Shown here: positions 13,345-47,349 of the stretch, one piece after another
How positions within the stretch are numbered: the first letter of the stretch is position 1
Layout of the letters: each line of letters starts with the position of its first letter
Source: Strigamia acuminata
Taxonomy: Eukaryota; Arthropoda; Chilopoda; Geophilomorpha; Linotaeniidae
Reading direction: 5' to 3'
Length of the DNA: 60,000 bases
Assembly (NCBI GenBank): GCA_949358305.1
Contig: OX442314.1
Span: 36,803,211 to 36,863,210, forward strand
Translations under genes and position numbers: made by a program
The notes under the pieces: generated by a model
Told to the model about the DNA's origin: nothing
The model's input: only the letters and a program-made list of their open reading frames with translations
The model's database searches: none

Positions 13345-13560
13345 AATTGGTAAATGTAAAATTCTACACTTATAGACATTTGAATGCAGTCTTACAGTAC
13401 TGAAATCATATTAGTTTGGATTATTTGGTAAATGCTACACTCATTAGATTCGAATGCAGTCTTACAGTATACAAAATTATAAAGAAAACTGTGATTTGGC
13501 AGATGCTGCACTCATTAGATTCCCAAATGTAGTCTTTCAGTAGTCTAACAGTAAGTAAAG
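13345..13560 (+). repeat. Satellite array in unit copy 1
   Basis: Three imperfect units with the GAATGCAGTCTTACAGTA core; the last, diverged unit reads AATGTAGTCTTTCAGTA. It is nearly identical to 27545-27770 and lies immediately upstream of the tail that hosts the LTR element in copy 2. Confidence 0.75.
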
Positions 13561-14384
13561 GCACATACCGGTAATTAAAAATGGCAATTGAAGGGAGAAA
13601 GGGGAATAGCGAATCCCAAAAAACAAAAAATTAACAACAAAAATGACAGAAAAAATAGGAAATGACAAATCAACAATTTCCTAAAACAGTAAATAATTTA
13701 ACAAATAAATTTTTCGTTCTACTAAAAAGATGTCAGTCAAAGAAAAATTAAAAACAAGATAATAGGCCTACGTGTTGTACAAAATGGCGATACCGACAGT
13801 ATGATGCAATTAAAATGGCTACGATGAAAAAACAACGAGAACGGAATTAAATTTGTAATTAATAAACACAGAAAAGAACAAATAGTGAAACAAAATTAAA
13901 CCGAAATTCAAACCATTTTCATAAAGAATCGTGTACGAAACCCGAGAACAGATAAATGAAAGAAAGCGGCGAGCACGAACAAATCACCGACAGGACCCGC
14001 CGAACAGGAAAACAACAACCTTCTTCTCCAACTGTGAAGAATCATTGCGCATGCCCGACTTATTCTCGAACACCACTCAACATCGATACTCTCGAAGATG
14101 TTTATACCGAAACAACATTTAAAATTATTCTTCCTTAAAAACTGAGAATTTAGTGATTTCGTCTGCCGTTTGTTTTTTATTTTTTAATGTTTGGAACAGT
14201 TGACAATTTCTCAACCGATTGAAAACCTTCTCTTGTGTGGCATGTTAGGAAATACTGTTGCCAGGGCCATCGCGCGATTAAAAAGGAAATCAAGTATACC
14301 GGTAGGTGACTAGAAGCACCACATGCGCGAGTGCCAGCAACTGGTAGCCAATGCGATTTTGTTAATTTTACGTTTTTTTCCCCC

Positions 14385-24099: not shown

Positions 24100-24949
24100 A
24101 GGCACACATGGTTAAACGCTCCAAGATGCACTTCGACCCGGATAATGAGTCATACATGGTTTCCAAGGGCGAATCTCCGAAATTCGTCCTTAGGCAAATT
24201 CGCCGTTAGGACGGGTACCTTTAATTTTATACTTTTTGTTTCTAGCAGGCGATTTCGTGTAGCACCAAAGCGGCCGGGTGTTGCTCGCCTCGTGGAGAGA
24301 CACTAACACCGTAAACGCGGTGCCCGAGCGCGTCTCACCTTGGACAAGGTCTCACTTAGCATCAGTTGCAGCAAGGTGGACATCCGATGCCCGGCGCCCG
24401 CATTGTCGTACGCCACCAATTTCCACTAGAGAGATGTGCTGAACCGGCTAGAGATGCCGTTATTCTTATTATCTTAAATTTAACTTATCGTTTTTCATCT
24501 TTCCCTTCCAGTGTGTGGCAACGCCAGGATCAACATGCACGACGTCACCACTTCCGCGCGGGGCAGCGTCCGAAAGATTCAGCCCTTCTTTAGTTTTTTT
24601 AATATTTTTAATTTTTTATTACATTTATATATATATTTTTTTTATAAAAAAATCTCATACATTTAATTTAATTTCTAATTTTTATTTCGTTCTCCACCTC
24701 CACCTTGTCTGTGGGATGGACTAAACGTTGAGTGTTAAGCGTTGGACGTTGCTTAGGAGTCTAACGACGCATTTGAACGCGCGGAATATCGCGCGGTCCG
24801 ACACTGTACGAATCGGTGCAAAATGTTAATGAATGTTTTCTTTATTTATTTATTTAATAGAAATTCGCAAACCACTAAACAATTTGATTTAATAGAAATT
24901 CGCAAACCACAAAACAATTTGATAACTATTCACACGTTAGACAAAACTA

Positions 24950-26026: not shown

Positions 26027-26641
26027 TGTGAGTGTTCGGACGGACGCCACGTGGTCTGGGGAGGACCGCGAGGCGCTGGACGCAACACACACGATGAATA
26101 ATCCCACGAAATACACAAAAGACACAAGTTTAGGTTTTGGTTATTGCTTTATTGTTGTCTAGGGGTATGATATGGTGTCTCAAGGTGTATTTCCGGTTTT
26201 GCCGCTATTCCTGATTCGACCACGTGTCACGGCAATCGGTAGATCGCCATGGCACGCGAGATCGGTTATTGCAGTTTGTGCCGCGTCGTCGCAACGTTAT
26301 TTAGAAACGTGCGGCGAACACGGCGTGTTGGACGCTCAGGTCCCGACTGGCGACAGCATTGCTGCGTCTGTCCTTCGGGTCTCTCCTACGATCGGCATTG
26401 CGAAGAAGGTCGGAACACGATCGTTCACCAGGGTCAAGAATCAACTGTCGGGCTACTGCGGGGCCCACCACTTCCGGAAGGGGCACTTCCGGTTCCCAAT
26501 TGGCCGGAGCCAATGACCAACAGCTCCACCTGGTGCGGGGGACCGCGCCAGGTCGCGCACGAGAAACACACGAGATGCGCGAGAGCTGGGAAACGCCGTG
26601 CATTGCAGTGAAGTGACAGACTGTGTGGGCAGCCGGTCACA
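26027..26641 (-). mobile_element. Solo LTR, 615 bp
   Basis: A GC-rich block beginning TGTGAGTGTT and ending CCGGTCACA (inverted TGTGA/TCACA), flanked by perfect 4-bp duplications CAAC (26023-26026 and 26642-26645). The uninterrupted site is seen in copy 1 at about 12137-12141. AATAAA occurs on the minus strand (about 26140), hinting at minus orientation. The minus-strand start TGTGACCG resembles that of the 5532 LTR, but the bodies differ. Confidence 0.8.
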
Positions 26642-27544
26642 CAACTTTCGATCGAATAGATGTGGTCCTCCAAAACCGGGAAGCATCCACAGCAATGGGA
26701 ATGTTTAGTAGTATTTCAGAAATTGGAGACTGGACAAAGAATTCACAATCGGCATCCGGATTTCATTGGCCTTGAAAAAGTGAACTGTTTTATAAATAAG
26801 GTGTTGTGTTCTTCTAAGCTTGTTTAATTGGTGGAATTTATACAAACACTTCAAATATCCCCTCATAATTGTGAAACATTTATAAGAGCACAACAAACAA
26901 AGAATTAAAGAAGACATGATTATACAAATCTAGCCAATGCTTTTGGTTTTGACAGAATCAATCATTCAATATTGCTTAGAAGTTGTGTTTCTAGACCTTA
27001 AAGTGAAATCCAGTGTGCTCTGTGTGCTCATGAGGAGGGTCCAGCGCCTCATGGTCCTCCCCTGACCACTTAATACTCTCAAAACTTTAGTGTGAAACCA
27101 ATATTTTTTTAAATTTTAGATAGAAGTTAGTGAAACCAATTTTTTATACAAATATTAATTTGTCTACACAATTGAAACCATTTTGAATTACGGTACTAAC
27201 TCATTGTAGCTTTTAATTCCTATTTGTAAGCTAATGGGTATTAAGGAGCTATTATATCATGAGGAATTAAGCATTTTAGTAGCTGCATCTAATTTGAATT
27301 AGACGATTTATTATTTAATTGACGACTAGATTACCAGCAGTTTTTCCAAAAACCTAAAAGTACAGAAAATGCTCTCATGTTTTGACTGCTGGATTAAAAC
27401 TCTGTTATAGTTAATGCGAAAGTACGCCTAAAAGAAGAGAAAGAAAGGCAAGACGCAAAAAGACCAAGAACCAGAGATTATGGTTATTAATTTATTTAGA
27501 TTTTTTTTTTATCTTTAGAGATTTCAATTTCGAGATTTGTCTGA

Positions 27545-27770: not shown

Positions 27771-28133
27771 ACCGGTAATTAAAAATGGCAATTGAAGGGA
27801 GAAAGAGGAATAGCGAATCCCAAAAAACAAAAAATTGCGGCGATCCGGGTTTTTACTTATTAAATTATGTAAATTTAACAAGCAATCGTCGGTGAGATGC
27901 CGTACAGGACTTCTACTCTGTGGCTAAATGGTTGTCTAGGGGAATGATTTTTACACGAAGAGTAAAAGGAAAAATTAGATTGTTTTAATCGTTCTAAATA
28001 CACTTGATAGATGCAAAGGGGAAATAATAATAGTAATGTAATGACTGGGTCGATCTGGCTTCTCTTTGTACTTGGACACTCACAGTTGACCGTTGGCTCC
28101 AAAATGGCGTCGATGGCGTCGTGTGAGCGCGGG

Positions 28134-28346
28134 ATTTTAGCGGAGTAAACTCGACGCTAAAATACGTTGCTAAAATATACTAAAAATCCTCGCGGAGCAA
28201 GCTCGACACGAGAACACGTCTTGCACACAGCGGTTTGATTATTACGGAGCAAGCTCGACGTAACAATCCGTCTTAACACAGTTCGCTTTGCGGAGTTAAA
28301 CTCGACACAAAGCCTTCAAATTGACAGAGCAAGCTCAATGTCAATT
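28134..28346 (-). promoter_or_regulatory. Array of five hairpins with a shared tip and differing stems (3' LTR)
   Basis: On the plus strand each unit reads stem, GAGY, (T)AA, RCTC, GA, stem'. H1 28134-28163: ATTTTAGCG/CGCTAAAAT, 9 of 9 pairs. H2 28189-28212: CTCGCG/CACGAG, 5 of 6. H3 28237-28268: GATTATTACG/CGTAACAATC, 9 of 10. H4 28285-28313: GCTTTGCG/CACAAAGC, 7 of 8. H5 28319-28346: AATTGACA/TGTCAATT, 8 of 8 (bulge AA, not GA). The stems differ in sequence between units but pair in each. In sense RNA, H2, H3 and H5 expose GAGCUUGCUC, a G(CUUG)C tetraloop, known to be unusually stable. Structure is therefore what seems conserved. Role unknown: RNA stability, packaging, termination or protein binding are options. 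Confidence 0.8.
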
Positions 28347-28761
28347 CACACACAGAAATGGCTTAAATTACGTGTAGTAATTCAAGCAGAAGGGCGCTAT
28401 TCTGTACAGTTGGTACAGACCAGCAATGAATCTCGATTCTTCCAATATCACAGATCACACTTAGCGAGTTTGGGCATAAGTTTGACACGGTTGTGAAAGG
28501 TTTGGAAGCAGGATCAAGAATGCGGGAAGAGTGGGCCAAAACCGTTTGGCTCACTTCTAAATCTGCTCAGAAAAGCTGCGCAGATGACGAGTTGCATGAA
28601 GATCACACACGGCCGCCTTCGGGTCGTGTGCAACAATCGAGCCGGGCACGCGCGAGGGGAAGGGATGCTCCGCCCAGGCACACGCCTAGCAGCATCATCA
28701 AAGCAATGCACGCTGCAGCGCGATTGGTTGACGCTGTTGCTGGGCCAAAACTTGCTGCAAA

Positions 28762-28789
28762 ACACAATATTATTTGGGTAATATTGTGT
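28762..28789. promoter_or_regulatory. 11-bp perfect inverted repeat in the LTR
   Basis: ACACAATATTA and TAATATTGTGT around a 6-nt centre (TTTGGG). The twin in the other LTR is at 40523-40550. It lies in the 5' third of the LTR in sense orientation, where U3 control elements would be. Role not known. Confidence 0.7.
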
Positions 28790-28924
28790 CTTGTTTTATA
28801 TTTTATTAATGTATGTTTTATTTCAACTTACATTGAAACAAAACATATACGCTTGTTGAATATGTTTATAAGACAATTTGGAAATATGGTGCGCACTCAA
28901 ATAGGAATATTTGAGGTCACCACA

Positions 28925-28941
28925 CTTCCCCCCCTTTTAAG
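28925..28941 (-). promoter_or_regulatory. Polypurine tract
   Basis: On the minus strand AAAAGGGGGGGAAG directly abuts the start of the 3' LTR (TGTGG). This is the expected position and composition of the plus-strand primer of an LTR element. Confidence 0.9.
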
Positions 28942-29097
28942 AAAGAATCTTATTCTTTTCCAAAAAGAGACAGGTAAGTATAGGAATAAATACACAAGGT
29001 TTCAAAGTAAAATGGAACAGGATATATATTTATTCTTTTTTATTACAATATAAAAATAAAAAAGGAATTATTTTTAATGAACGGGCGTGTTCCCTAA

Positions 29098-31933
29098 TTA
29101 TTTCGGCAACATGTCCGTCGAATGATCGTTTGGATCTTTGTGCTCCGTGACGGTGCACAAAGGTCGGCCGGCGTTTGGTCCTGACCGGAAGCCAGGGTTG
29201 ATGTGGAGCCACACTTGCTTGATGCGGTCCACACCATCCCTTCGTCCAAAACCCATCTCGAAATACTCCTGCGGGTCTTGAGGCGTAATTCGAGCGAACA
29301 CCAGGCGTTGATGTAGGATCCACGGCTGCTGTTCCTTGATGTGGTTTTCCAGCCACGCGAGGACTCGGTTGCATAAATCCTCGCTGTTCTGGAGAATCGT
29401 TTTCGTCGCGCTCGTTATGTAGCAAAAAGCGTATAATGAGCGCAAACGTTGATAGGCGGTGAGGTGGGTGGCCATACTCGATCCCCTATCTCTCGGCGGC
29501 GAATCCTTTGGAGGAGGCGGCGGTGGCGGCGACTTTTTGCAGATCGAGAGGGATCTGGATCTGCGCAAAGCCGGGGTGCGCGTCTTTGGTCTGGCACCGC
29601 TGGCCACAGGCACGACGAACTCGCGATCGTCGCTGTCGAGCCATTCCATCGGAGACGAGATGTTGCAACTCGGTGCCTCGGTTGCACGGGAAACACTCGA
29701 CGTTGCCGTGATGGCAGCGTGGAGTGGAGCTGCGGATGACGGTGGTGCGCCAGCGGGACGGGCGGTAGCTCGTTCTGCTGCGCGTCGCTGCTTCAGCGCA
29801 GCCCATTCCTGCCGTAGTCGAATGGCGGATCCAGCCGGAGTTTCGCCAGTCGCCTCGGCTTGTTGCGTCAATTCGGCGAGCATCGTTGGAGGATCGGGGC
29901 GAACTGACTCCCAATCGTCCAGCAAGGCTCGTGGAAGCCCTAACGGCACGGTCCACAATCGAGTGGCGGCCGCCAGAGCAATCTGTGGGTCGGGAAAGAC
30001 TCCTTGGAACAGGATTCGAAGAAGTCCCTCCGACAATTTCCTGTTCATTTTCTGCAGCGTCCGTTGCAGTTGCTTGTCGGACTTGCACGACGCAAGCTCT
30101 CGGGCAAGCCATTGCCATTCCTTCTCTCCTTCGCGGATCTGAGCGAGTTGGTATTCGTCCAGATGCGCGAGGTACATCGTTTGGGCTGTCTCGGGAAACG
30201 ATGAGAATCGCCTCCAGAGATCAGCGCACTCCTGTGCGGGAAATGGTTCTTGAGAGACGTATCCCTCAAAACGGATGACCGATGTCACTTGTGGCACGGG
30301 CACCGATGGGTCTGGTCGCATGTCGCTGGTGACTGGACGGCAAGCGAACGGCAAAGAGGTGTTGACGTCTCCTTGACCGGCTTGCAATGCGGCGATGCGT
30401 CGATCTTCTTTCGCTATCTCGTCCGACCAGTCAATTCGGCCGGAGGAGGAAGCGCTAGGCTGTGAAGCGTTGGACCTTTCTTCACGCGATGAGAGAGAAC
30501 TCCTCGTGGAAGATTGGCGCGATTGCACTCGAGGTCGGCTTCGGGATGTGGGTCTCGACACGGACTTCGAATGTCTTTTTGGCGGCGTCGACTCGCGTCG
30601 GTGATGCGAGCGATGACGAGCCTTCTGGAGTGGAGGTAACCCTCCAATGGCGCCTTCCCCCGACGACTGTGTTGGGGAGGAGCGACGGCCACTGTAGGGC
30701 GACCTCGATGATCGTGACCTCGACGTGGAGCGCGGTGGCACCACGTGGATGGTGGAAGCGACCTGTACCCGGGGCTCAGGCTCTGGATACGGGTTTGGCA
30801 CGAAATCAGCATGGAAACATCCGCCCATGGCTAGCTGATGCATTTCCGATTGGCATGTCGGCACCCAACGTTTCTTTCCGTCCGTTGTTACACGGAAAGA
30901 TTCGTGGTAGAGGCGTACAACCTCGGCCTTGGTTTGGTCCAAGCGTTGGAAAATGTCCTCCAAAATCTGTCGACGCTCCCACGCAGGAGCGTTGAAGTAA
31001 CGGCGATGGTCTCGCGTTTCTTGATTGATCACTGTGAAGGCGAAGTCGAGCAACACGTTTCGCAGTGGTCCGAAGGTGTCGCGCTTCATTGCCCACTCGA
31101 GGGCGTCGCGATGACCGAATCCATCGATTAAATAGGCGATCCGAAACTTCGTTCCCCATCGCTTGTTTAAGGCCTTGGAGAATTTATGTCGGGCCGCCCA
31201 AAACGTCAGTCTTCCTTTAGACTTTATGATTTCTGGCGGCAATGCATGTCGCCAGACACCAGGAGCTGTTGGAACATCGGGGTGCAGTTCGAGATGCGTC
31301 TCCCGAAGCTGGATGATCTGTAAAATATTCGAAGAAATAATTAAAATCCATTTTTTCGTTAAAATTAATTATTTCCGAATTTTCAGTGAATAAAATCACG
31401 GGTGAGATTTCATTCGACAGTTTAGATTCGTTAAATTTTTCAAAATGTTTGAAAAATCGTGAAAAACGTTGTTTCCGACGGCTATGTTTCAGTGTTTGGA
31501 GCGTTACCATAGCAACGCCTCAAAAATGAGACACAGCGCCATCTGATGATAAAAATGGCGGCGCCTTCTTGCGAAGGCGTTACCAACGAACTTTTCGCTT
31601 TTTCCGAGTGAAAATGCACTTTTAATTACTTTTCATGACTGAAAGGTAATTTTATTTTAATTTATTTACCCGGTCGTGTCTCTGTGCACGAGTTTCGCCG
31701 TTTGGATCGGCGAATAGGCCTCCTCGTAGTCGGGGCTGAGACGGCGTGACTGGCAAACGGGCAGCAGCGTCGGCCAGAGCGGCTTGAGCTTCGGCGGACG
31801 CTTCGGCGGACTCTTCGGTGACATCCACAGATTTATTCGAAGTATTTGCGGAACCAAGCAGCGTCGAATTTGTTTCTAATTCGAGGCTGTTGGCGCCGGC
31901 TTCGCTTCCTTCTTTCGGTTCTCCTTCTTCCAT
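29098..31933 (-). CDS. Third ORF of the gypsy-type element: spliced Arg/Ser-rich protein, not envelope
   Basis: Exon 1 is 31933-31670 (ATG, 88 codons, acidic, starting MEEGEPKEG). A GTAAAT donor at 31669 and a TTTTACAG acceptor ending 31318 bound a 352-nt intron. Exon 2 is 31317-29098 (739 codons plus stop). Both boundaries are phase 0, giving about 827 aa. The long downstream frame has no early ATG; its first apparent start is a TTG, so splicing is the natural reading. Exon 2 begins with a globular-looking Trp-rich region (FWAARHKFSKALNKRWGTKF). Then come Arg/Ser dipeptide tracts (STSRSRSSRSPYSGRRSS), a helical middle, a poly-Pro tract, and a final Trp-containing domain (ENHIKEQQPWILHQRL). 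There is no signal peptide or membrane anchor, so it is not an Env. An RNA-binding or splicing/transport accessory role is a guess from the RS tracts. Confidence 0.75.
31318..31669 (-). other. Predicted intron in the third ORF
   Basis: 352 nt with GT...AG ends, separating two phase-0 exons. It contains stops in all continuing frames. The splice would be on the element's own RNA, so full-length genomic RNA must avoid it or the splice must be partial. Confidence 0.65.
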
Positions 31934-32140
31934 TTGAACGACTAATCCAAATGGAAAAGAAAAACGAAAATTAATTTATTAGTTTTTCCTTGGAAAATTC
32001 CAAAGAAAAAACTACTTACAATTGAAGATTCGGGAGAATTAATCCAACGGTTTCTCTTTTGGTTTTGGGGATGAGCACTTAACACACGTGTGAGATCGAA
32101 GTGAACTCAGACGCGAAGTGATCAGTTCAAATACCGGAAG

Positions 32141-35100
32141 TTACGTTTGGGTAACGTCGCGGTTAGTGACGTCATCCAATCTTACTGTTTGATTGGTTTG
32201 AGTACGGCTTGGGGAATTGCTCCTTACGTCATACGGCTGATCCCTGGATCTCGAGGTTAGCGAGGGGAGAAGACACATGTTGTTCTTTCTTCTCGGTTTA
32301 CGAGTCCGAAGATTATATCTCTTTGTCGGCGAGGGATTTATTGTATTTAAATCGCCGTCTTCATTGTCATCGGAGACTGAGTCAGATGAGTCTTTTATTT
32401 CAGATGTTTTTTGTTTCTTTTCTAAAAACACCTTTTTATTTAATTTTTTAGCAATTTCAAGCTTTTTGAAACTGTCACGAAGTTCAACGTCGTTATTCAC
32501 GAGGTCTGACTTCATTTGTGGTTTGGATGAATTATCGACAGGTATTTTCTTTAATTCATCGTCATCTAACGTATTAATTATATTTTCCGTCTCTTGACCG
32601 ACTTCTTCGCCTTCTAACCATACTTCCTGGTCGAAACTCGGGAAATACGGAGTTAATTCTGACGAATGGACAGCTGGAAATATTTCGTTATTCTCTAGCT
32701 TTCTCAATTCTACGGATCCTCCCTGTAATACTTTGGTTATTACATAAGGTCCTGTTCTTTTATCAGCGATGCCAGCTGCAATGCCGCGGGCAGCGCTCGA
32801 CAAAACATGAGAATCTCTCCAAACTAAATCGTTTAATTTAAAATTGGAGAACTTCTCACCTTCTTTTTTAAGATTAACTCGTCTACGCAAATCTAACACG
32901 TGTGACATCATGTGCTGATATGTTTCGGCGATAACGGCTTCTAATTTTTGCACGTATAAATGTGGGTTTTTTGGATCTACGACCAAAATTCCTTCAGGTA
33001 TTCTTGGATCCCAAGGTACTCTGAGTTCGCGAAAAAAGTTAAGAAATGCGGGAGAGAAGTCTCTTCCTCTCGTCACCGTAGTTCTCAAACTAAATGCAAA
33101 TTCACGCAAATATTCGTCCCATTTGGAATGAACAGATGAATAAATTGCAACCAAATATTTGATGTCACGGTTAACCCTTTCAACCGGGTTAGCTTGTGGG
33201 TGATACGTTGAAGTTGGTGTTGGAACCATCTTGAACTTTTCACAAAATTTTTTAAAGACTTGGGCACGAAATTGCGGGCCGTTGTCAGAAATAATTTTAC
33301 GAGGGAATCCCATGCTCATGGAAAGGTGATAAATGCAATTTGCTACTTTTCCAGCAGTGGGGTTACACATTGGATATAATTCTGGCCAATGAGTTGCCAC
33401 GTCAAGTATGACTAAAATATGTGTGTTGTTTTTGCGCGTCCGAGGTTTCGGGCCGGTCAAATCAACACTTAGGCAGTCAAATGGGCTGTAAGGACCCATT
33501 TGCGCTGCTTCAATTTGTCCTTTCGTTCGAGGCTTGCAAGCTTGACAACGCTCGCAATGTCGAATGAATCTCGTAATGTCCGATTTCATGCCTTTCCAGG
33601 TATAAATTCGGCGTGCTCGATAAAGAGTCCTTGCAATTCCTGGGTGGCCAGAAAGTGGGTGGCCATGCATTAGCCAAATAATTTTATACTTCAATGTCTG
33701 AGGTACAAAAACTTTGAGTGCTCTCCCATCCTCCCCCAATTCATCAGACATTGTGGGATGAAATTGCATTAATAAGTCATCTTCAATTAAGAAGGTGGTT
33801 GCGTGTTTTCTATATTGTTTCTTCTGTAGTCGCGTTGTGACGTCAGGCGGAAATTGATTACAATTTAAAAAATTACGCATCAATTGGCAAACTTTATCTT
33901 CTTTTTGGGCCTTGATTATGTCTTCCCTTGTGGGGGGTTCACAATCAAGACGCTCTACAATTTTGGCGACAAATGCTTTTATTAAAACATTTGACGAAGG
34001 AACTTGGAATCTCCTTGAAATTTGCGCTCTTATGACGTCATCTGATTCCTCAGAGGGGTCATAAATTTTAGTCCAATAATTGACGAATTCGTGATCTTCC
34101 TTTTCCTCCAGCGTGGAGACAGGAAGCTCATGAAATTTTCCCATTTTCCAATTTCGTTGTGGTGATGGACAGTAAGATAATAATTCATCATTATCTCCAT
34201 CATCTTCAGGATTTTCCGGTTTATCAATCGGTGATCTGGATAAAGCATCCGCTAAAACATTTAGTGGACCTTTAATATATTGTATTTCGAAAGAGTAGCG
34301 CATTAGCTCCATTTGCCAACGCGCTAACCTTCCGGCAGGTTCGTCTAACTGCATCAACCATTTTAATGCTTGATGGTCAGTCCTTACTATGAATGTTGTA
34401 AATTCCAAGTAATGTCGAAATTTACGTAATGCCCAGATTACCGCTAGGCACTCCAATTCTGTGGCGCTGTAATTTATCTCAGCAGGTTGCAAACTTCTGC
34501 TGGCATAAACACAAGGCACTTCGATATTTTGATCATCGATTTCCCTCATTTGCATAAGCGCGGCGCCAAGTCCTTTTCTGCTGGCGTCGGTATGCACAAT
34601 AAATGGTTCTGTCAAATCAGGCATGGCCATTGTTTCTGCATTCGTCAAAGCATCTTTTATTTGATCAAAAGCTTCTTGATGAATTTCTGACCAAATAAAT
34701 TCCACATCCTTTTTGAGCAAAGGACGTAGAGGTTCCGTCATGACTGCCAGATTCTTGAGTAATCGGTGAAAAAAGTTCACCATTCCCAAAAATCTTTGCA
34801 ACTCTTTCAAATTTGAAGGAGCTGGCATTTCTTTAATGGCGGCGACTTTTTTAGGGTCGACACTAACTCCGTGAACACTTAACTTGTAGCCAAGAAAAGT
34901 TAATTCTTTTCTGCCAAATTTTGATTTTTCTGGATGAACATGAAGATTTGCATTTTCAAGTTTACTCAGAATTTCTTCCAGATGCATCATGTGTTCTTCA
35001 AAATTTTTTGATATTATAATTATATCATCGAGGTATGCCCATGCGAATTTTCGATAGGCGTCCCCCAAAATCTTTTCTATCAACTTTTGGAAAGTTGACG

Positions 35101-36616
35101 GCGCATTTACGAGACCAAAGGGCATGACTCGAAATTGTAGTCGACCCAAAGGGCTCCAAAACGCAGTTTTAGCACGGTCGTTCGGATGAACCTCTATCTG
35201 CCAATAGCCTTTTGACAAATCTATCGTTGTGACCCATTCAAATCTTCCGAGTTCTCGCAAGATTTCCTCAATGCTGGGCATTTGAGGAGGGTCGTATAAT
35301 GTATGTGCGTTGAGTGGTCTAAAATCAATGCAGAGTCTCGGATCACAATCCGGACGCATCACTAGAACTATTCGCATCCCATAGTCTCCAGTGGCTTGTT
35401 CAACGTACCCATTATCCAACATATCTTGACAGATTTGACGGATAATTTCACGTTTCTGTGGATTTACGCTTTTAAACGGAACTCTAATTGGAACCTTAGT
35501 GTCCAGTTTAATTTCATGCCTAACGAGGTGTGTTCTACCTGGTCGGCGAGATAAAATCTTTTCATGTTTCTTTAATACTTTTTCAAGCATTAAATTATTT
35601 TCCATTGACAAATTAGCGTCGCTAACAAGTCTTTGTACTATATTTTCTTCATCGGCAACTTTAGCTTGACATGCAGTGGCGGAACCAGCTTTCATGTGAT
35701 TTGCTTTAATAAAGTCGCGTTTCATGATTTCTTCGGGTGGATCAAGGAACTCTTGATAACGATCAAGAATCGCTTGAGGAACAAAAGGTAAATCTTCTTT
35801 CAAAGACTTGACAAAATTCCAAGACATGGTCTTAGGATTTGGTTGAATATTGAGTCGATTCATGAAATCACATCCTAATAAAATAATAGGATATTTATTT
35901 CTTAAAATTATGAATGGATGACTTAACATCCCGTGTGTCCACGCAAAAGAAAGTAGGAGAGTTTTTTCAGGGACTACATCTTCTGAAGCAGTCGTAACTC
36001 TCACATCCGGTCCAATTGGTCGAATTTCATCTTCCAGTTTCAGCGAAATTACTACGGAGTAGGCCATGAAGCTTCGATTAGCTCCAGAGTCTAACATTCC
36101 TGTTATCATACCGTTTGCCGTCTGCAATCGAATTGTCGGCAAATCATTGCTGTTTGGTATGTCCGCGTACTTGCATTTAAAACGTCGCGGTGGCTTAATT
36201 TCTATCGGCGGATCCAATGGTAATTCGTCCAATAAATCATTAGTGACTAACGTTGTAGCCATTAATTTTTCAATACATTCATCAAGACCAGGTAAATCAA
36301 TTTTATCTGATCCTTCAGTGATTTCAGGTGTTGGCCTAGTTTTTTCATCAAGTAAAGTAACAGCATCTTTTATTTTAGATTCCCAATCAACTTTTATTTG
36401 TTGAACTTTTTCTTTAAAAAATTCTTCAGTGATGTTTTTATTTTGCAGCACAAGCCTTAAACTGGAAACATCAATTTTTGGAAATATTAAATTATTTTCT
36501 AATTCTAATTTAATCTGAGTATTCAAAAATTCATCTAAAATTTGAGATGGTGTTAGTTCATTTTCCGAGGCGGTAGGCGTCGCATCCACTAGACCGTCTG
36601 GATGCGCGCTTACAAG
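32141..36616 (-). CDS. pol: Pol polyprotein: protease, RT, RNase H, integrase
   Basis: Open for 1,491 codons in the -1 frame relative to gag, starting at the slip site. An ATG is not needed; the first apparent start (36589) is a GTG. Domains in order: aspartic protease with LDSGANRSF and ILLGCDF; RT with IDFRPLNA, FGLVNAPSTFQK and the active site AYLDDIIIIS; RNase H with HTDAS, ATELECL, RTDHQA and ADALSR; integrase with the HHCC zinc finger (GHPGIARTLYRARRI...CERCQACK), catalytic D-D-E (SVDLTGPK, IISDNGPQF, NPVERVNRD) and a GPY motif (KRTGPYVITKVL). A charged tail of about 190 residues with RYNLRTRKPRRK follows, possibly chromatin- or nucleus-targeting. No stop or missing catalytic residue was seen. 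Confidence 0.95.
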   Translation of the reverse strand, partial: LVSAHPDGLVDATPTASENELTPSQILDEFLNTQIKLELENNLIFPKIDVSSLRLVLQNKNITEEFFKEKVQQIKVDWESKIKDAVTLLDEKTRPTPEITEGSDKIDLPGLDECIEKLMATTLVTNDLLDELPLDPPIEIKPPRRFKCKYADIPNSNDLPTIRLQTANGMITGMLDSGANRSFMAYSVVISLKLEDEIRPIGPDVRVTTASEDVVPEKTLLLSFAWTHGMLSHPFIILRNKYPIILLGCDFMNRLNIQPNPKTMSWNFVKSLKEDLPFVPQAILDRYQEFLDPPEEIMKRDFIKANHMKAGSATACQAKVADEENIVQRLVSDANLSMENNLMLEKVLKKHEKILSRRPGRTHLVRHEIKLDTKVPIRVPFKSVNPQKREIIRQICQDMLDNGYVEQATGDYGMRIVLVMRPDCDPRLCIDFRPLNAHTLYDPPQMPSIEEILRELGRFEWVTTIDLSKGYWQIEVHPNDRAKTAFWSPLGRLQFRVMPFGLVNAPSTFQKLIEKILGDAYRKFAWAYLDDIIIISKNFEEHMMHLEEILSKLENANLHVHPEKSKFGRKELTFLGYKLSVHGVSVDPKKVAAIKEMPAPSNLKELQRFLGMVNFFHRLLKNLAVMTEPLRPLLKKDVEFIWSEIHQEAFDQIKDALTNAETMAMPDLTEPFIVHTDASRKGLGAALMQMREIDDQNIEVPCVYASRSLQPAEINYSATELECLAVIWALRKFRHYLEFTTFIVRTDHQALKWLMQLDEPAGRLARWQMELMRYSFEIQYIKGPLNVLADALSRSPIDKPENPEDDGDNDELLSYCPSPQRNWKMGKFHELPVSTLEEKEDHEFVNYWTKIYDPSEESDDVIRAQISRRFQVPSSNVLIKAFVAKIVERLDCEPPTREDIIKAQKEDKVCQLMRNFLNCNQFPPDVTTRLQKKQYRKHATTFLIEDDLLMQFHPTMSDELGEDGRALKVFVPQTLKYKIIWLMHGHPLSGHPGIARTLYRARRIYTWKGMKSDITRFIRHCERCQACKPRTKGQIEAAQMGPYSPFDCLSVDLTGPKPRTRKNNTHILVILDVATHWPELYPMCNPTAGKVANCIYHLSMSMGFPRKIISDNGPQFRAQVFKKFCEKFKMVPTPTSTYHPQANPVERVNRDIKYLVAIYSSVHSKWDEYLREFAFSLRTTVTRGRDFSPAFLNFFRELRVPWDPRIPEGILVVDPKNPHLYVQKLEAVIAETYQHMMSHVLDLRRRVNLKKEGEKFSNFKLNDLVWRDSHVLSSAARGIAAGIADKRTGPYVITKVLQGGSVELRKLENNEIFPAVHSSELTPYFPSFDQEVWLEGEEVGQETENIINTLDDDELKKIPVDNSSKPQMKSDLVNNDVELRDSFKKLEIAKKLNKKVFLEKKQKTSEIKDSSDSVSDDNEDGDLNTINPSPTKRYNLRTRKPRRKNNMCLLPSLTSRSRDQPYDVRSNSPSRTQTNQTVRLDDVTNRDVTQT

Positions 36617-36622
36617 TTTTTT
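36581..36622 (-). promoter_or_regulatory. Programmed -1 frameshift signal between gag and pol
   Basis: On the minus strand gag ends CTA AAA AAC TTG TAA. The heptamer A_AAA_AAC (36622-36616) is in the zero frame and is a classical slippery site. A 9-nt spacer follows, then a perfect 8-bp stem, CGCATCCA (36606-36599) with TGGATGCG (36588-36581), around a 10-nt loop. The loop contains CGGT, which can pair with ACCG a few bases downstream (a possible pseudoknot). The -1 frame leads straight into pol without a stop. Confidence 0.85.
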
Positions 36623-39504
36623 AGAAGTTCGCCGATTGATTTCATCGATTTTTCGAACTCCTCAATGATCTTGTCTTTGCTCGATTTTCTGTCAGGACAT
36701 TCTTTAGCCCAATGTCCCAATTTTTTACAAATATTACACGGGTCAGTAGCAGGCGATTTCGCGACTTTTGGTGAAGGCGAACTTGAACGTTTAGCTTCGT
36801 CCTTTTTAGGGGTCGGCGACTTCGATCTACTGAGCGCGTCTGTTTTTGGCGAACCAAAAGTAACGTTTTTAGGCGCCATCTTTGGTCCAAATTTTCGAGC
36901 TACTGCGTTATTACGGGCTAATAAAGCAGCTGCAGCCTTGCTTTCTGGTTCCGAGTCAGATTTCTCTGGTTCAGAAGCAGTTTCCATTTCTGTCACTTCG
37001 GCTAAGTGAGCTTTAGGGGTTGGATGTGGATTTTTCCCATCCGATCCCTTTTTAGATTCCTTAGCAGTCTCTGCCAAAAAATCTCCTCGTTTTGGGGGTT
37101 GCAAAAGAGGGGTATTAGCAAAACGTGTATCTTTAGCTAATTCCTTTCTCCGTTGCTGTCGCTTAGCGTACGCAACTTTTTCATCAGCTGGTAGATAAGC
37201 TTTATAATTTTCGTCAATCCTTATTTGATTGGCTCGCATAAATTTGGCTAATTCAGCGAAACCACCCGGATAAGGTGCTCGTACTGAAAGTAGAACATTT
37301 TTTGAATAATCTGTCAATCCACGTCGGAATTGACGATCAATGGCTGCATCTCCCATCGTATAAGGGAGAGTGACCAATAAATCCTCAGTCCTTCTTAAAT
37401 AAGAGCGAAGACTTTCGCCTTTATTTTGAGAAAGATTATCCCACATTTGTAATAAGTCTTCGCTTGACTCTCCATACTCAGTCATGAATTCTTCTACAAA
37501 GTGGTTCCAATTTTGAAATTGTTTTGAATAAAACCATTTCTCAGCTCGGTCTATAAGAGCTTTAGGTACTACTCTTTTCAAAGCAGTGTGACATGCAATG
37601 CCATTCAACCTTGAAATTCGTAAAACTTCATCTAAAAGAGTGGATCCAGCTTCCCATTCTCCATCGAATAAAGCGGGTTTGATGTGATCCCATCTAATAG
37701 TTCTTTCGTCAACTAGATCGTGTGTCCAGTTGATTGCAGTATATTGGGCAATTTTCTGTCGTAATGCGATGTCAGCATTATCGGCAGTAGCGTCAGATCG
37801 ATCGGAAGATCGACGATCAGCTAATAATCGATCAATTTCTTCAGCAGTGTAATAATGAGTATTACGCCGAGAAGAGTGGCCTCGATGTCGACGTCGATGA
37901 GATCGATGTCGATTATCGCGTTCTTGTTGCGCATTCACATCAGAATCCGACCTTGAATCAGATTGTGAATTTGAAGGCGTGTTAAAATGTGGTGTTTCAG
38001 GTGGGTCGGGTGGGTCGCCGTCATCGTCTGGCGGTCGACGTCCACCTCCAGGTGGTCCATCTCCGTGTCCATCTGGATTTCCTCCATCTGGTGGATTTCT
38101 TCTATACTGACCCCCACCTGGCGGGCTTTCATGTCCGTCGGGTGGTTCGCGTGCTGGATTCGTGTCTCGTCGACTTCTTTTTGACGAGTCTTGCTGTTGA
38201 GCCAGTGGTATCGTTCGAGTAACATGAATACCAGTTTCATGCCGTCTATTTCGATCGTCTACCATCCCCAACAGTCGGTCACTGTTGTGAAAAATAGGAT
38301 TTCGATTACCAGGAAGTGGATTGCGATCAGCTCTCCTTTCCTCGGAATCTGAAGGACGTTTTCTTTTTGAGCGATGGCGGCGACGCGAACGTTGGTCGTC
38401 ATCACTCGATAATCCAGATTGGCTACTTAACTCTGAAACAACAGAAATTGTTATTGTTTCGGGAGTCAAAATAGGGACAGTTGGCGCAGCCATTTCTGGT
38501 TGCACCAATTGGTCAGTATAATTCCTTGCTTGCAAACGATCTTTCATTTCTGCAAGCTCTTCTTGAGCGCGCAACAAATCAGCTCGGAGAATTTCATTCT
38601 CATTTATTTGATTTTGCGATTCTTCTGGTTGTAATCGCTTAGCAGGGTCGCCAGACTTGACTTGTCCGCTCGTACTGGGTTGATCCAGCGAGTGGAAAAT
38701 CTCATCTTCACGCTTAGCTATTTTGCTCTCGCGAGTACGCTGTGTTTTAGCACGTGTGTCTAATTCAGCAGCATATCTCACTAATTGATTATGATTGCGT
38801 TGGTAGTGGTCTGCCAAATCAATCAATTCTTTATTTTTCTGCTCCAACTTACTTTTGGTAAGTTCGAGCTGTCTTCGCGCCTCTTGGTGTGAGCGAATTG
38901 AAAGTTCATTTCTAGTATTCATTTTAGAAAGATCTTCCACTTCACCTTTTAATCTGTATTCTCTAGCTTTTTGGGCTAGAAATTCCTCATTTTGTCGATT
39001 GAGTTCCATGTGTTGGAGCTCAACCTCCGCTTTTTGTTGTTGAAGCTCAGCTTCTTTTCGTTCCATTTCAAATTGTAAATTTGAAACGGCACGATCAGTG
39101 TGAAGTCGTATCATGGCGCGATGAATCTCTTCCACCGTCATGTCGTCCGTTATTTGGGCGCCATCCTGGCGTGCTTGATTTCTCAAAGCATCCAGCATGG
39201 TCATGCGAGGATGTGATTCGTGAGACGATTCACTTTCCATTTCACGTAACGTATTTTCCACTTCCTCCAGTGGAAGTGGCGGGAGTTCTTGGTCGTTAGA
39301 ACTCGCACTTGAAGCGCTTAATGCTCTAGCAACTTCATTTTCAGCATCCTTAAGTTGTTTCGGATCTGGAACTGGTGTTATTTCTTCAGAAATAATTTTC
39401 TCCATAAGCATTTCAGGCTCGAGAGCCGGCAAAACCGTCGCTGCTCGTTTCTGAGTGCTTGGTCGACCTCGCTGTCGTTTTACAATTTGCATTGGCGTCG
39501 CCAT
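36610..39504 (-). CDS. gag: Gag polyprotein of the gypsy-type element
   Basis: 964 aa from the ATG at 39504, the first ATG after the primer site, about 72 nt downstream of it. Residues about 130-270 form a long Glu/Lys/Gln-rich coiled coil. About 370-570 is low complexity (Arg/Ser, then Pro/Gly/Asp). A capsid-like helical region follows (about 590-760; e.g. WNHFVEEFMTEYGESSEDLL, RSYLRRTEDLLVTL, FRRGLTDYSKNVLL). Near the C-terminus is one zinc knuckle, CNICKKLGHWAKEC (C-x2-C-x4-H-x4-C), flanked by basic Ser/Pro sequence. At 964 aa it is much longer than a usual gypsy Gag, the extra length being the N-terminal coiled coil and the disordered middle. Confidence 0.93.
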   Translation of the reverse strand: MATPMQIVKRQRGRPSTQKRAATVLPALEPEMLMEKIISEEITPVPDPKQLKDAENEVARALSASSASSNDQELPPLPLEEVENTLREMESESSHESHPRMTMLDALRNQARQDGAQITDDMTVEEIHRAMIRLHTDRAVSNLQFEMERKEAELQQQKAEVELQHMELNRQNEEFLAQKAREYRLKGEVEDLSKMNTRNELSIRSHQEARRQLELTKSKLEQKNKELIDLADHYQRNHNQLVRYAAELDTRAKTQRTRESKIAKREDEIFHSLDQPSTSGQVKSGDPAKRLQPEESQNQINENEILRADLLRAQEELAEMKDRLQARNYTDQLVQPEMAAPTVPILTPETITISVVSELSSQSGLSSDDDQRSRRRHRSKRKRPSDSEERRADRNPLPGNRNPIFHNSDRLLGMVDDRNRRHETGIHVTRTIPLAQQQDSSKRSRRDTNPAREPPDGHESPPGGGQYRRNPPDGGNPDGHGDGPPGGGRRPPDDDGDPPDPPETPHFNTPSNSQSDSRSDSDVNAQQERDNRHRSHRRRHRGHSSRRNTHYYTAEEIDRLLADRRSSDRSDATADNADIALRQKIAQYTAINWTHDLVDERTIRWDHIKPALFDGEWEAGSTLLDEVLRISRLNGIACHTALKRVVPKALIDRAEKWFYSKQFQNWNHFVEEFMTEYGESSEDLLQMWDNLSQNKGESLRSYLRRTEDLLVTLPYTMGDAAIDRQFRRGLTDYSKNVLLSVRAPYPGGFAELAKFMRANQIRIDENYKAYLPADEKVAYAKRQQRRKELAKDTRFANTPLLQPPKRGDFLAETAKESKKGSDGKNPHPTPKAHLAEVTEMETASEPEKSDSEPESKAAAALLARNNAVARKFGPKMAPKNVTFGSPKTDALSRSKSPTPKKDEAKRSSSPSPKVAKSPATDPCNICKKLGHWAKECPDRKSSKDKIIEEFEKSMKSIGELLKNL

Positions 39505-39576
39505 TTTGTCAAATTGAAAAAGAACAATGGAAATAATGGATCTTTTTGCAAAAATCGGATTTTAACAATCAAAACA

Positions 39577-39594
39577 ATCCCGGACGGGCCCCCA
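39577..39594 (-). promoter_or_regulatory. Primer-binding site, tRNA-Pro type
   Basis: Minus strand TGGGGGCCCGTCCGGGAT starts 2 nt inside the 5' LTR. It differs at one base from the well-known retroviral tRNA-Pro site (T to C at position 8). An 18-nt match at the right place leaves little doubt that it is the minus-strand primer site. Confidence 0.9.
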
Positions 39595-39596
39595 AG

Positions 39597-40685
39597 TGCG
39601 GCGATCCGGGTTTTTACTTATTAAATTATGTAAATTTAACAAGCAATCGTCGGTGAGATGCCGTACAGGACTTCTACTCTGTGGCTAAATGGTTGTCTAG
39701 GGGAATGATTTTTACACGAAGAGTAAAAGGAAAAATTAGATTGTTTTAATCGTTCTAAATACACTTGATAGATGCAAAGGGGAAATAATAATAGTAATGT
39801 AATGACTGGGTCGATCTGGCTTCTCTTTGTACTTGGACACTCACAGTTGACCGTTGGCTCCAAAATGGCGTCGATGGCGTCGTGTGAGCGCGGGATTTTA
39901 GCGGAGTAAACTCGACGCTAAAATACGTTGCTAAAATATACTAAAAATCCTCGCGGAGCAAGCTCGACACGAGAACACGTCTTGCACACAGCGGTTTGAT
40001 TATTACGGAGCAAGCTCGACGTAACAATCCGTCTTAACACAGTTCGCTTTGCGGAGTTAAACTCGACACAAAGCCTTCAAATTGACAGAGCAAGCTCAAT
40101 GTCAATTCACACACAGAAATGGCTTAAATTACGTGTAGTAATTCAAGCAGAAGGGCGCTATTCTGTACAGTTGGTACAGACCAGCAATGAATCTCGATTC
40201 TTCCAATATCACAGATCACACTTAGCGAGTTTGGGCATAAGTTTGACACGGTTGTGAAAGGTTTGGAAGCAGGATCAAGAATGCGGGAAGAGTGGGCCAA
40301 AACCGTTTGGCTCACTTCTAAATCTGCTCAGAAAAGCTGCGCAGATGACGAGTTGCATGAAGATCACACACGGCCGCCTTCGGGTCGTGTGCAACAATCG
40401 AGCCGGGCACGCGCGAGGGGAAGGGATGCTCCGCCCAGGCACACGCCTAGCAGCATCATCAAAGCAATGCACGCTGCAGCGCGATTGGTTGACGCTGTTG
40501 CTGGGCCAAAACTTGCTGCAAAACACAATATTATTTGGGTAATATTGTGTCTTGTTTTATATTTTATTAATGTATGTTTTATTTCAACTTACATTGAAAC
40601 AAAACATATACGCTTGTTGAATATGTTTATAAGACAATTTGGAAATATGGTGCGCACTCAAATAGGAATATTTGAGGTCACCACA
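39597..40685 (-). repeat. 5' LTR of the gypsy-type element
   Basis: 1,089 bp, same length as 27836-28924 at an offset of 11,761. No mismatch was noticed in any compared block. It contains the second copies of the hairpin array and of the 11-bp palindrome. Confidence 0.95.
39895..40107 (-). promoter_or_regulatory. Array of five hairpins (5' LTR copy)
   Basis: Same five units as 28134-28346. In sense orientation they lie downstream of the middle of the LTR, so they may fall within the transcribed R/U5 leader and be present at the 5' end of the RNA. No clear TATA box was found, so the start of transcription is not fixed. Confidence 0.75.
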
Positions 40686-41025
40686 AAATTAACAACAAAA
40701 ATGACAGAAAAAATAGGAAATGACAAATCAACAATTTTCTAAAACAGTAAATAATTTAACAAATGAATTTTTCGTTCTACTGAAAATATGTCGATAAAAT
40801 TTAGTCAAAGAAAAACTAAAAACAAGATAATAGGCCTACGTGTTGTACAAAATGGCGATACCGACAGTATGATGCAATTAAAATGGCTACGATGAAAAAA
40901 CAACGAGAACGCAATTAAATTCGTAATTAATAAACACAGAAGATAACAAATAGTGAAACAAAATTAAACCGAAATTCAAACCATTTTCATAAAGAATCGT
41001 GTATGAAACCCGAGAACTAATAAAT

Positions 41026-42581
41026 AGGGGGTTTCATTAATTAAGCAATTTTGTAATTTTGCAACTTTAGCAATTTTGCACTTTTGGATTTATCACATGA
41101 TATCAGTTCCACCAATCATGTGCATAATTGCAAAAACACAAAACAGAAAAAATACACAATCACAAAATCAAAGGTAGTTTTGCTATTTTGGCAAAAATGG
41201 CAGCAGCCAAACTCAATCCAAGTGGCCATCACAAATTGTGATTAATAATTAGTTTCAAAAACAATCTCATAATTTTGCAATTTTGCAATTATTTAAATAG
41301 TCACGTGACTTCCTATCCACCATATTAGGTTATAGTTATATCCAACCAATTTTAAAATGTGATGCAAAAAAACTAGTTCTTATTTGTGTGATGGAACAAA
41401 ATATTTTTTAATAAGGTGCATTTTAATAAATACTAGCTGTTCACCCACAAAGCCAAAGCCATAGATCAGACAAATGTATACAACCAAATCATAAAATAAA
41501 TTTTTGCAAAACTAAACCAAACCCATAATAATGCAACCCAAACCCAAACCACACCAAACCAAAACCAATGCCAATCTGGCCAATACCCAAACACAATCAA
41601 ACCCAAAAGTTAACCTAAACCCAACGCCAATCCAGCCAATTCAATTTTGGCCCAAACCACTGCAACCTGCTATTTTGTCCTCCTTTATTATTCAACCACT
41701 TTTTCCAACTTTTTCTTATAAATCAACCCAAAAAAGATCGTTTTTTCCAAAATTTAAAGTCAACGGTTAATCCAATCAAAAAGTTATCTGTACCATCGTT
41801 TTAAGCGGGATTTTCTTCTCTGGAAACCTGTTTTAAACATTTCATTCGGTTAATTTTACGAATTTTTGGTTTTGTCATGGTCGAATCTCGAATCCAAATT
41901 CTGCACCAAATTTCCAAATTTTCCCATTCGGTCCCCCGCTAAGATGGCCCGAATCGGCACTTTTCCTCGCCCGAATCAAAAAATAAAAAATACAGGCTTG
42001 TGCAGAATTGTCTCCTCTTCAAAATGAGCTTGGTTCCATAATTTTCCGAGCTCATCTTGACATAGAAAACAATAAAAAACGATACGCGACGAACATTTCC
42101 GCCTGAATTTCCATTCGGGCACCCGCTAAAATCGCCCTGAATCGCCCTGAATCGGTACTTTTTTTTACCCGAATCGAAGTATTGAGTTTCCTAGCTGTTA
42201 TACAGTCATGGATGCATCAGCATTTTGATGATATACAAGGATACAAGTTGGCCACTTAGATAGAGCTTGGATGCCTCCATTTTGTTTTGAGTTTCACAAG
42301 CCTCAAAATCACTTCTTATCAAAATCACAAAAACTACCTTTTAGATGTTTTTGGGATTTTGTGTTTTTACTCTTTTGTGCTTTAGTGAATGTGAATGTGA
42401 TTGGTAGAACAGATATCACATGACAATACTCAAAAATCACAAAATTGTCCAGATCACACAATTGCAAAATTGACTGGGTTAATTCAATGTAAACTCATTT
42501 TTGGAGGCATCAAAAAATAATGATTTTGTGATTAATGCAAAATCACAAAATTGCAAAATCATTCATATAATGAAACCCCCT
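41026..42581. mobile_element. 1.56-kb non-autonomous DNA transposon with AGGGGGTTTCATTA ends
   Basis: 14-bp perfect terminal inverted repeats (AGGGGGTTTCATTA ... TAATGAAACCCCCT), flanked by AAT on both sides (41023-41025, 42582-42584). Copies 1 and 3 of the host unit (near 13955 and 51930) show the uninterrupted ATAAATGAA site. Next to the ends are further subterminal repeats rich in GCAATTTTG and CAAAATTGC. The only open frame (41531-41770) is an Asn/Pro/Gln/Thr-rich low-complexity run, not a transposase. The superfamily is undecided: a 3-bp duplication with a GGG-start end recalls PIF/Harbinger, but AAT is not its usual TWA. Confidence 0.85.
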
Positions 42582-42950
42582 AATGAAGGGAAGCGGCGAA
42601 CACGAACAAATCACCGACACGACGAACAGAAAAACAACAACCTTCTTCTCCAACTGTGAAGAATCATTGCGCATGCTCGACTTACTCTCGGACACCATTC
42701 AACATCGATACTCTCGAAGATGTTTAAACCGAGACAACATTTAAAAGTATTCTACCATAAAACCTATGAGAATTTAGTGATTTCATGTGCGATTTATCTT
42801 GTATTTTTAATATTTTAAATATTTGACAATTTTTCAACCATTTGGCTGTGTTGGTACATTTAACCTTGGCAGGAAAGGAAATACTAATGTCAGCGCCATC
42901 GCGCGGTTAACTAGGAAATCAACTTTAAATGACTAGAACCACCACATTTG

Positions 42951-43339
42951 CTAAGTATGTTGGTTTGTGAATAAAATTAAAAGAAGCGAATAAAAAAATT
43001 GTAAGAGCAGAACAAAAGGAATAAAATTATCTTTTACAATTTATGATATAAAAATTTAACTAAAGACTTATAGTGTTGTGATTGGGTTTTATCAGGTAAT
43101 TAAAAAAAATTCGAATACTTCGTTTTCGTTAAGGTTTTAATTTATGTTTATTTGTTGTGCCTAAGTCACCATTGAATAAACGGGTGATTTGACACACACC
43201 ATTAAAATTTGGCAGATTAAAGTTGAATGTTTTCATTTAAAATTGCAATTTCGAAGTTAAAAGTTGAATATGATTAAAAACATTCGACATAGAAAGACAA
43301 TCAATTGCTTAACACTCAAATAATCTCATACAAAAACCG
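42951..43339. other. AT-rich gap, nothing recognised
   Basis: Follows the end of unit copy 2 and precedes a Tc1 fragment. Short A/T runs only; no open frame of note. Confidence 0.5.
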
Positions 43340-43575
43340 TATTCCCAGGGTGTTTTCACCAAATCAAGACAAGATATTGCCAATGAGTTAACTTGCAACA
43401 TCAAAACTGTAAATAGATGGGCGAGCCGGTGGTGCCGGCTAGGTGTTGTCGACCGCCAAGCAGGCGGTGGCCGGCAAAAAAAGACAACTGATGCAGAAGA
43501 TGAACAAATTCTAACAGAGGCCCTGGAACAAGCATTCTCCAGTTTCACACAGGTCAAGAGCGACCTCGATCAGGC
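43340..43575 (+). pseudogene. Tc1-like transposase N-terminal fragment, copy 5
   Basis: Matches 17436-17650: IANELTCNIKTVNRWASR-type helix-turn-helix codons, then a linker. Similarity stops at 43575 (GACCTCGATC), exactly where the R2-like element begins. This marks the insertion or fusion point. Confidence 0.65.
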
Positions 43576-43576
43576 A

Positions 43577-46898: not shown

Positions 46899-47024
46899 TT
46901 TCATGTAATGCAAGGCGTCAGGTGCACCGCAAACGACGTTTTGACAATTTTGGACAGAACCGGTTATTTTTTCAAAATTTCCGGTTCTGTGATTTTTTTC
47001 ATCCGGTTTCCCTGCACGGAAACC
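46899..47024. other. Short segment with a 10-bp inverted repeat
   Basis: ACAGAACCGG (46954-46963) pairs perfectly with CCGGTTCTGT (46981-46990) around a 17-nt AT-rich centre. The segment lies between copia LTR and Tc1 scraps and is not found elsewhere in the window. Confidence 0.5.
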
Positions 47025-47214
47025 CCAGCAAATTCGCGTCACATGGCAAAAATTAGCAATAAATCAGAACCTCGTCCAAAAAATAATAGACTCCATATGC
47101 CCACACGATAACAAAAAGTAATTACTAATTTAAATGGGCACTGGACCGGATATTAATGAAACATATTACACATTTGTATTATTTATTGCTTATTTATATC
47201 AATCTCATTTGACG
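47025..47214 (+). pseudogene. Tc1-like transposase C-terminal scrap
   Basis: Matches 9690-9850 (ATTCGCGT(C/G)ACATGGC..., SICP-DDHKK block, then the 3' flank GGCACTGGACCGGATATTAA). It is followed by the copia YVDD block, as in the other copies. Confidence 0.65.
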
Positions 47215-47349
47215 CGGTCATCCTAGTTTATGTGGATGATGTGGTCCTTTTCACGAAAGGATCATTGCCCATGGATAAGTAGAACTGTGCTTGCCCTTCG
47301 TGAAATTTTCATGATCATAGACAGTGCAAAAGAAATAGTTAGGCTGAAT
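47215..47349 (+). pseudogene. Copia RT fragment (YVDD)
   Basis: VYVDDVVLFTKGSLPMDK then a stop. The active-site YVDD is intact here, unlike at 18.39 kb. Continues with ALREIFMIIDSAKEIVRL-like codons shared with 18470-18520. Confidence 0.7.

Follow-up and report, generated by a model that had tools for sequence, protein, structure and literature searches.

The window (the whole 60,000-nucleotide stretch of Strigamia acuminata DNA analysed here) contains a Ty3/gypsy-type LTR element on the minus strand (27836..40685), identified by its LTR pair, its gag and pol domains and its ends. The 5' LTR (39597..40685) and the 1089-bp 3' LTR (27836..28924; TGTGG...CCGCA) agree at 99.908% of 1092 aligned bases, their ends have the TG...CA form, and a short target repeat, the 4-bp AAAT, flanks the element at 27832-27835 and 40686-40689. 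Pfam domains define a gag open frame (36610..39561; Retrotrans_gag with a CCHC knuckle) and a pol open frame (32141..36661), in which reverse transcriptase, RNase H and integrase follow one another in the Ty3/gypsy order. A purine tract is present, together with the primer-site-like sequence TGGGGGCCCGTCCGGGAT, a candidate primer site that would be of the tRNA-Pro type. Because gag and pol lie on the minus strand, this strand was taken as the sense RNA, and all features of the element given below are on it. The closest relatives of pol are generic ones, at 32-45% identity among the best 120 of 2364 matches. Between pol and the 3' LTR there is a third open frame of 756 codons (29098..31368), rich in arginine and serine, which is a possible accessory protein without supporting homology: no Pfam family was found in it and no homologue among 7993 candidates scored, and two single-sequence structure models of its ends were of low confidence (mean pLDDT 48 and 54).

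The flanks of the element (7500-27800 and 40680-52200) are made of many repeated blocks that are about 78-97% alike. The element was inserted into one of these blocks, and a copy of that block (13056-13957) continues across the insertion point. The left flank also holds a 31-nt inverted repeat (26051-26081 and 27039-27069; 90% complementary, 957 nt apart) and a pair of 35-bp tandem repeats that are 94% alike (24849-24918). Within the first 170 bases of the LTR, a simple inverted repeat, ACACAATATT...AATATTGTGT (28762-28789), adjoins a stretch rich in AATAAA and TATAAAA that may act as the promoter.

Five hairpins lie within 28133-28348, at the place in the 3' LTR where an earlier sequence-only reading of this DNA had put them, and they recur in the 5' LTR (39894..40109), as found with a covariance model of the hairpin unit. 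We numbered them in the order opposite to that of the earlier reading. H1 (28317..28348; its fifth) has a AAUUGACA stem, a UU bulge and the tip GAG CUUG CUC; H2 (28283..28315; its fourth) has a GCUUUGUG stem, a UC bulge and GAG U(UUA)A CUC; H3 (28237..28268; its third) and H4 (28185..28216; its second) have GAUUGUUACG and UUCUCGUG stems, respectively, each with a UC bulge and GAG CUUG CUC; and H5 (28133..28164; its first) has a AUUUUAGCG stem, a UC bulge and GAG UUUA CUC. The scores of H1 to H5 in the covariance model were 39.2, 35.7, 44.2, 41.8 and 46.3 bits. On the minus strand, all ten units (five per LTR) were matched by the model with E < 1e-6, and four further matches each had E of 0.06 or worse. 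On the sense strand the units follow the plan stem - U Y - GAG - Y N U R - CUC - stem, with a loop of five bases in one unit (H2) and the loop closed by a C-G or a U-A pair. The shared tip plan that had been proposed is right in general, except that H1 has CAA instead of CGA after the tip; three tips are indeed G(CUUG)C in the sense RNA, and the remaining two are UUUA and U(UUA)A.

The outer stems differ from unit to unit, but each pairs with itself, as had been noticed. With G.U allowed, 8 of 8 positions were paired between the own arms of all five units, compared with 5.05 on average and at most 7 in the 20 swapped arm combinations, and the chance of 8/8 pairing was 0.0008 per unit. The single mismatches had been described as G opposite A in H4 and H2; on the plus strand these are in reality C opposite A, and a third mismatch, A opposite C, occurs in H3. 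Read as sense RNA, each of the three is a G.U pair. Folding, one of the checks proposed with the earlier reading, gave a z-score of -3.09 on the minus strand (none of 200 shuffles as good) and of -2.47 on the plus strand (3 of 200 as good), with H5 predicted to be more stable in the antisense RNA (-11.5 against -10.2 in the sense RNA).

COX1 of the same genome, on contig C157, is read in the invertebrate mitochondrial code. Among its best 120 relatives it is closest to Mecistocephalus marmoratus (87%), ahead of a horseshoe crab (Tachypleus) and Bothropolys (86%), Mecistocephalus and Bothropolys being centipedes; this marks the host as an arthropod and probably a centipede. A search of the genome (237.5 Mb in 157 contigs) found the core motif at 383 places, compared with 1 in the reversed control, and a few of the 383 may fall outside LTRs. 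An Rfam scan of 27800-29000 found no family above its gathering score; the one match, rliB, was on the other strand and had E 0.37 and 18.8 bits against a threshold of 40. Directly 5' of the array there is an ordinary hairpin without the shared tip, H0 (28362..28386), and a candidate closing stem around H1-H5 (28120..28354) would pair UGUGUG (28349-28354) with CACACG (28120-28125). Directly after the array, the sequence at 28099-28118, which is part of a conserved block, is CGCCATCGACGCCATTTTGG and resembles YY1/Pho-type sites.

To compare copies of the LTR, we started from 271-276 candidate copies given by a first look at the genome. From the genome searches and 20 further stretches we took in 69 loci, L010 and L032 being places already taken, and used 66 LTR copies with both array flanks, which came to 54 distinct arrays after identical ones were merged. 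These copies were picked by similarity or list order, not randomly, and include both LTRs of several elements. Two LTR pieces that miss part of the left flank (L086 and L087) were excluded from the 66; each has four intact, paired hairpins. Units were chosen by alignment position and core, without a pairing filter. The pairing count omits five core-mismatched units (H2 and H5 of L056, H4 of L057, H3 of L058 and H1 of L084), an omission that may slightly favour pairing, and also H1 and H2 of both arrays with seven hairpins (see below).

Across the copies, the head was far more constant than its surroundings. The minor-allele fraction was 0.008 in GAG and in CUC and 0.004 at the loop U in position 3 and at the first bulge base, compared with 0.10 in the spacers and 0.05 in the stems. 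The head is partly variable, with fractions of 0.26 at the second bulge base and 0.12 at the second loop base; the loop types are CUUG, CGUG, UUUA and UCUA, in which position 2 varies and position 3 is nearly always U.

In the outer stems of the 54 arrays, 1927 of the 2088 cells were Watson-Crick pairs, 151 were G.U, 5 were A.C and 5 were other combinations. G.U was seen at 17 of the 45 pairs and A.C at 5, each A.C cell in one array alone, and some G.U pairs are persistent (H3 pair 6 in 46 of 53 arrays, H4 pair 7 in 40 of 53). On the tree, 28 changes from Watson-Crick to G.U were inferred compared with 5 to A.C (binomial P 3e-5), and on a second tree built from all columns the numbers were 31 and 5 (P 6e-6). 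The same trend of G.U over A.C holds in H0 (466 Watson-Crick, 60 G.U, 1 A.C and 3 other cells among 530), where 53 of the 60 G.U cells are one fixed G.U pair, and in the candidate closing stem, where 24 of 26 changed cells remain paired, all through one-sided Watson-Crick/G.U changes, and no compensatory change was found among the 26.

The covariation test across family copies, also proposed with the earlier reading, showed that the stems co-vary above the tree-based null: the covariation sum was 2.24 compared with 0.35 (sd 0.17), and none of 300 null values was as high. Both partners of a pair had changed in 26 pair-by-branch cases compared with 3.1 expected (maximum 8 in 500), and on the second tree in 21 compared with 1.5 expected (maximum 5); the tree nulls are simple parsimony placements that ignore recombination. 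Two-sided replacement was found in 7 of the 45 pairs and was confined to H1 (pairs 4 and 6 and the loop-closing pair), H2 (pair 8 and the loop-closing pair) and H5 (pairs 1 and 4), while H3 and H4 vary solely through G.U or rare losses. H5 also preserves stepwise intermediates, with 5' arms ending in AGCG, GGCG and GGCA opposite 3' arms CGCU, CGCC and UGCC. The number of further pair types, 24, was not above the null (26.3). In a small alignment, A1, made of 15 of 39 distinct units selected by a pairing filter of at least 6 of 8, which biases its 98.3% paired positions, two of five covariation measures were not above shuffles. Finally, the RNAalifold consensus of 52 arrays was -77.6 kcal/mol in the sense and -48.0 kcal/mol in the antisense orientation, and 60 column shuffles of the sense alignment gave a mean of -31.9 and a best value of -47.4 kcal/mol. 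Compensatory changes beyond the tree null and tolerance of G.U on one strand, which together mark a conserved structured RNA, were both found, and pairing is kept while the stem sequence changes not just across units, as first noticed, but also across copies.

The copies further indicate how such arrays may grow. H3, H4 and H5 stand at 52-bp steps (direct repeat D2), a spacing that suggests an old tandem duplication. Although these three look like old tandem copies, neither outcome that would have refuted the earlier reading came about: stem changes do co-vary, and the array did not turn out to be the debris of one decaying repeat. For three of the six allele pairs tested (H1xH4, H1xH5 and H2xH5) all four combinations of alleles exist, which shows that hairpin alleles have been reshuffled by recombination. 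Because of this reshuffling, independent events among the 26 double changes are fewer, about 7 by our estimate. In 51 loci (52 arrays) there were 262 model matches, five per array except for four arrays: seven each in L021 (C1:8946673) and L024 (C1:8967953), and four each in L056 and L057. The loci of the two arrays of seven lie about 21 kb apart and may be the two LTRs of a single element. In each of these arrays, one unit like H1 and one like H2 precede the standard array, and both arrays are apparently the product of recombination between two arrays. At another locus, L031, the distance between two LTRs of the family is only about 1.4 kb (C1:26530411 and 26531796).

A second repeat, here named family B, carries units with the same hairpin head as the main LTR and with different stems. 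Two model matches each were found in four of its eight loci (L039, L041, L044 and L045). Four of these eight matches have a single mismatch, with C facing A in the fourth pair below the head, and the remaining four have more mismatches or an insert; a further copy, L042, has one degenerate unit that was missed by the model. A variant of the pattern that main-family stems do not match occurs at 4 places, all of them in family B. Within the stretches compared, BLAST found no similarity between family B and the main LTR, gag, pol or the third frame. In local alignment to the 3' part of the main LTR, 5 of 7 copies scored above the best of 100 shuffles (L043 84 against 48, L040 86 against 41, L044 65 against 42, L042 52 against 39 and L039 50 against 47) and L041 and L045 did not, and in the 5' part just L045 exceeded the shuffles (40 against 38). 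At its end L042 has CCCGGATCGCAACA, and the main LTR has CCCGGATCGCCGCA there. We read family B as a deeply diverged LTR family, in which case the hairpin head seems to predate the family split while stems and unit number changed. Several family B copies likewise have CGCCATTTT after their hairpins.

The place of the array in the transcript was estimated from a candidate poly(A) signal, ATTAAA (27984..27989), which is part of a conserved block after the variable stretch downstream of the array; AATAAA occurs at about the matching place in four family B copies (L039, L041, L042 and L043). Since the array is upstream of this likely signal, the full-length RNA would carry it at its 3' end. The array would then probably belong to R or U3, and its earlier assignment to the R/U5 leader is not supported by this position; both transcript start and transcript end are predicted here from the DNA. 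If transcription starts upstream of the array, the array would sit at both ends of the RNA.

The preference for G.U in exactly the strand that encodes gag and pol indicates that the stems have been selected as base pairs in the transcript of the element. A DNA palindrome has no reason to prefer G.T, because every G.T on one strand appears as A.C on its complement. The strand asymmetry thus implies structure in the sense RNA and points to selection acting on the element's own sense RNA, and not on DNA sites or decaying repeats. We therefore consider it probable that the array acts as RNA, within the sense transcript of the retrotransposon, with multivalent protein binding as its likely mechanism. 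The suggestion of an array of binding sites is likely to hold at the level of RNA; at the level of DNA it does not fit pairing that tolerates G.U and hardly A.C in the gag-pol strand.

A head that hardly varies, carried on stems of free sequence, fits a hairpin recognised by a protein. The head would be the recognised part and the stem a spacer that needs only to be double-stranded, and several weak sites in a row would give avidity, as operator hairpins do for a phage coat protein. Most likely the array would bind several copies of a putative protein ligand and so serve packaging, or else export and stability. The user would likely be a protein that handles full-length RNA. It might be the element's Gag, in packaging or dimerisation, or an export or stability factor, either of the host or encoded by the Arg/Ser-rich third frame; we rank the two about equally, and each is a tentative assignment. 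In its evolutionary form, the proposal is that an arthropod Ty3/gypsy lineage has acquired a row of like-headed hairpins and kept it over a deep split of LTR families, as a multivalent operator in which recombination would change the number of hairpins and a single RNA-binding protein dedicated to this task, from the element or the host, would read the heads. We give this proposal a little less than an even chance.

A narrower version, in which the array is read by the protein of the third frame in an export system like those of Rev or Rex, is rather unlikely. The 756-codon Arg/Ser-rich frame between pol and the 3' LTR would be a suitable source of such a reader, and export elements in LTRs are described for other retroelements in the available portions of PMC3434621 and PMC11379458, but the frame has no Pfam domain, no homologue and poor structure models. 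We regard as somewhat less probable still that the array acts mainly in RNA processing, by juxtaposing the poly(A) signal and the cleavage site, by suppressing the 5' poly(A) site or by assisting strand transfer in R. Its location upstream of the candidate ATTAAA would suit such a role, and a comparable second role is attributed to the HTLV-1 RxRE in the accessible text of PMC3434621; RNA processing, however, would not require five similar heads in which the loop U and the bulge U hardly vary. Juxtaposition at the poly(A) site may instead be a second role of the array.

Two further explanations were rejected. An array acting as DNA, either as palindromic protein-binding sites or as a cruciform-forming insulator (the structural insulator of the earlier reading), would account for a nearly palindromic tip repeated at 52-bp steps for three units, yet DNA predicts no preference between the 151 G.U and 5 A.C cells of the gag-pol strand, and a DNA binding site could do without eight outer base pairs whose sequence changes, so that we hold it to be very improbable. 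Equally improbable is an origin by mutation without selection, in which template switching during reverse transcription perfects palindromes and the copies then decay: recombination is evident, both in the reshuffled alleles and in the recombinant look of the seven-hairpin arrays, but palindrome correction would erase G.U, which persists at high frequency, and neither the A.C cells, each in one array alone, nor the stepwise intermediates in H5 fit such a process.

In summary, the preferred reading remains a row of protein-binding hairpins in the sense RNA. If it is true, the operator array would add a new type to the LTR cis-elements, one similar to phage coat operators and unlike a single folded domain. 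It would also represent a modular LTR RNA domain that DNA sequence alone suffices to recognise, through covariation and through wobble tolerance on one strand. The nearly fixed head on a free stem would be a ready bait for finding the protein, the differences in unit number between copies offer a route to how arrays grow, and should Gag or a host export factor prove to be the ligand, direct tests of packaging or RNA handling would become feasible for invertebrate Ty3/gypsy elements.

Some features of the array have counterparts in known systems. In a CUUG tetraloop, C1 and G4 pair; likewise, three of the five tips here are G(CUUG)C, and C-G alternates with U-A at the closing pair, although the loops of the array also include CGUG, UUUA and UCUA. 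The Drosophila gypsy insulator is an array of Su(Hw) DNA sites outside the LTR. The present array resembles it as a repeated array of (here candidate) sites within a Ty3/gypsy element, and differs from it in lying inside the LTR and in what is conserved, which is not a site repeated at the DNA level but pairing as gag-pol-sense RNA.

Other parallels are LTR-encoded structured RNAs that the transcripts of the element carry, such as the RxRE of HTLV-1/2 and the RcRE of HERV-K, and the available portions of PMC3434621 and PMC11379458 describe RxRE-1 as spanning U3/R with four stem loops in one folded domain of 255 nt. The array is likewise a structured RNA encoded in an LTR, its transcript being predicted. 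Unlike RxRE-1 as described there, it is a row of hairpins with the same tip and free stem sequence, and, unlike in RxRE and RcRE, its protein and any export role are predictions. Residual conservation in long retroviral R regions has been linked to stem-loops by Benachenhou et al. 2013 (PMC3601003), and the array differs from these, as far as the accessible text presents them, in having a repeated common head. Ty1 RNA structures have been studied for dimerisation and packaging, with kissing loops at the 5' end of the RNA (PMC5454406, in its available part), while the array consists of repeated same-tip hairpins in the LTR. The literature on LTR hairpins that we consulted, chiefly outside subscription journals and partly available, contained no repeated array of same-tip hairpins. 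The earlier statement that no LTR feature like this had been described thus stands for the same-tip array within that literature and does not extend to structured LTR RNAs in general (PMC3601003, PMC3434621). In conclusion, judged by the accessible text of these sources, stem-loops in long R regions and LTR export elements are already known (PMC3601003, PMC3434621, PMC11379458), and what appears to be new is the repeated form with the same tip.
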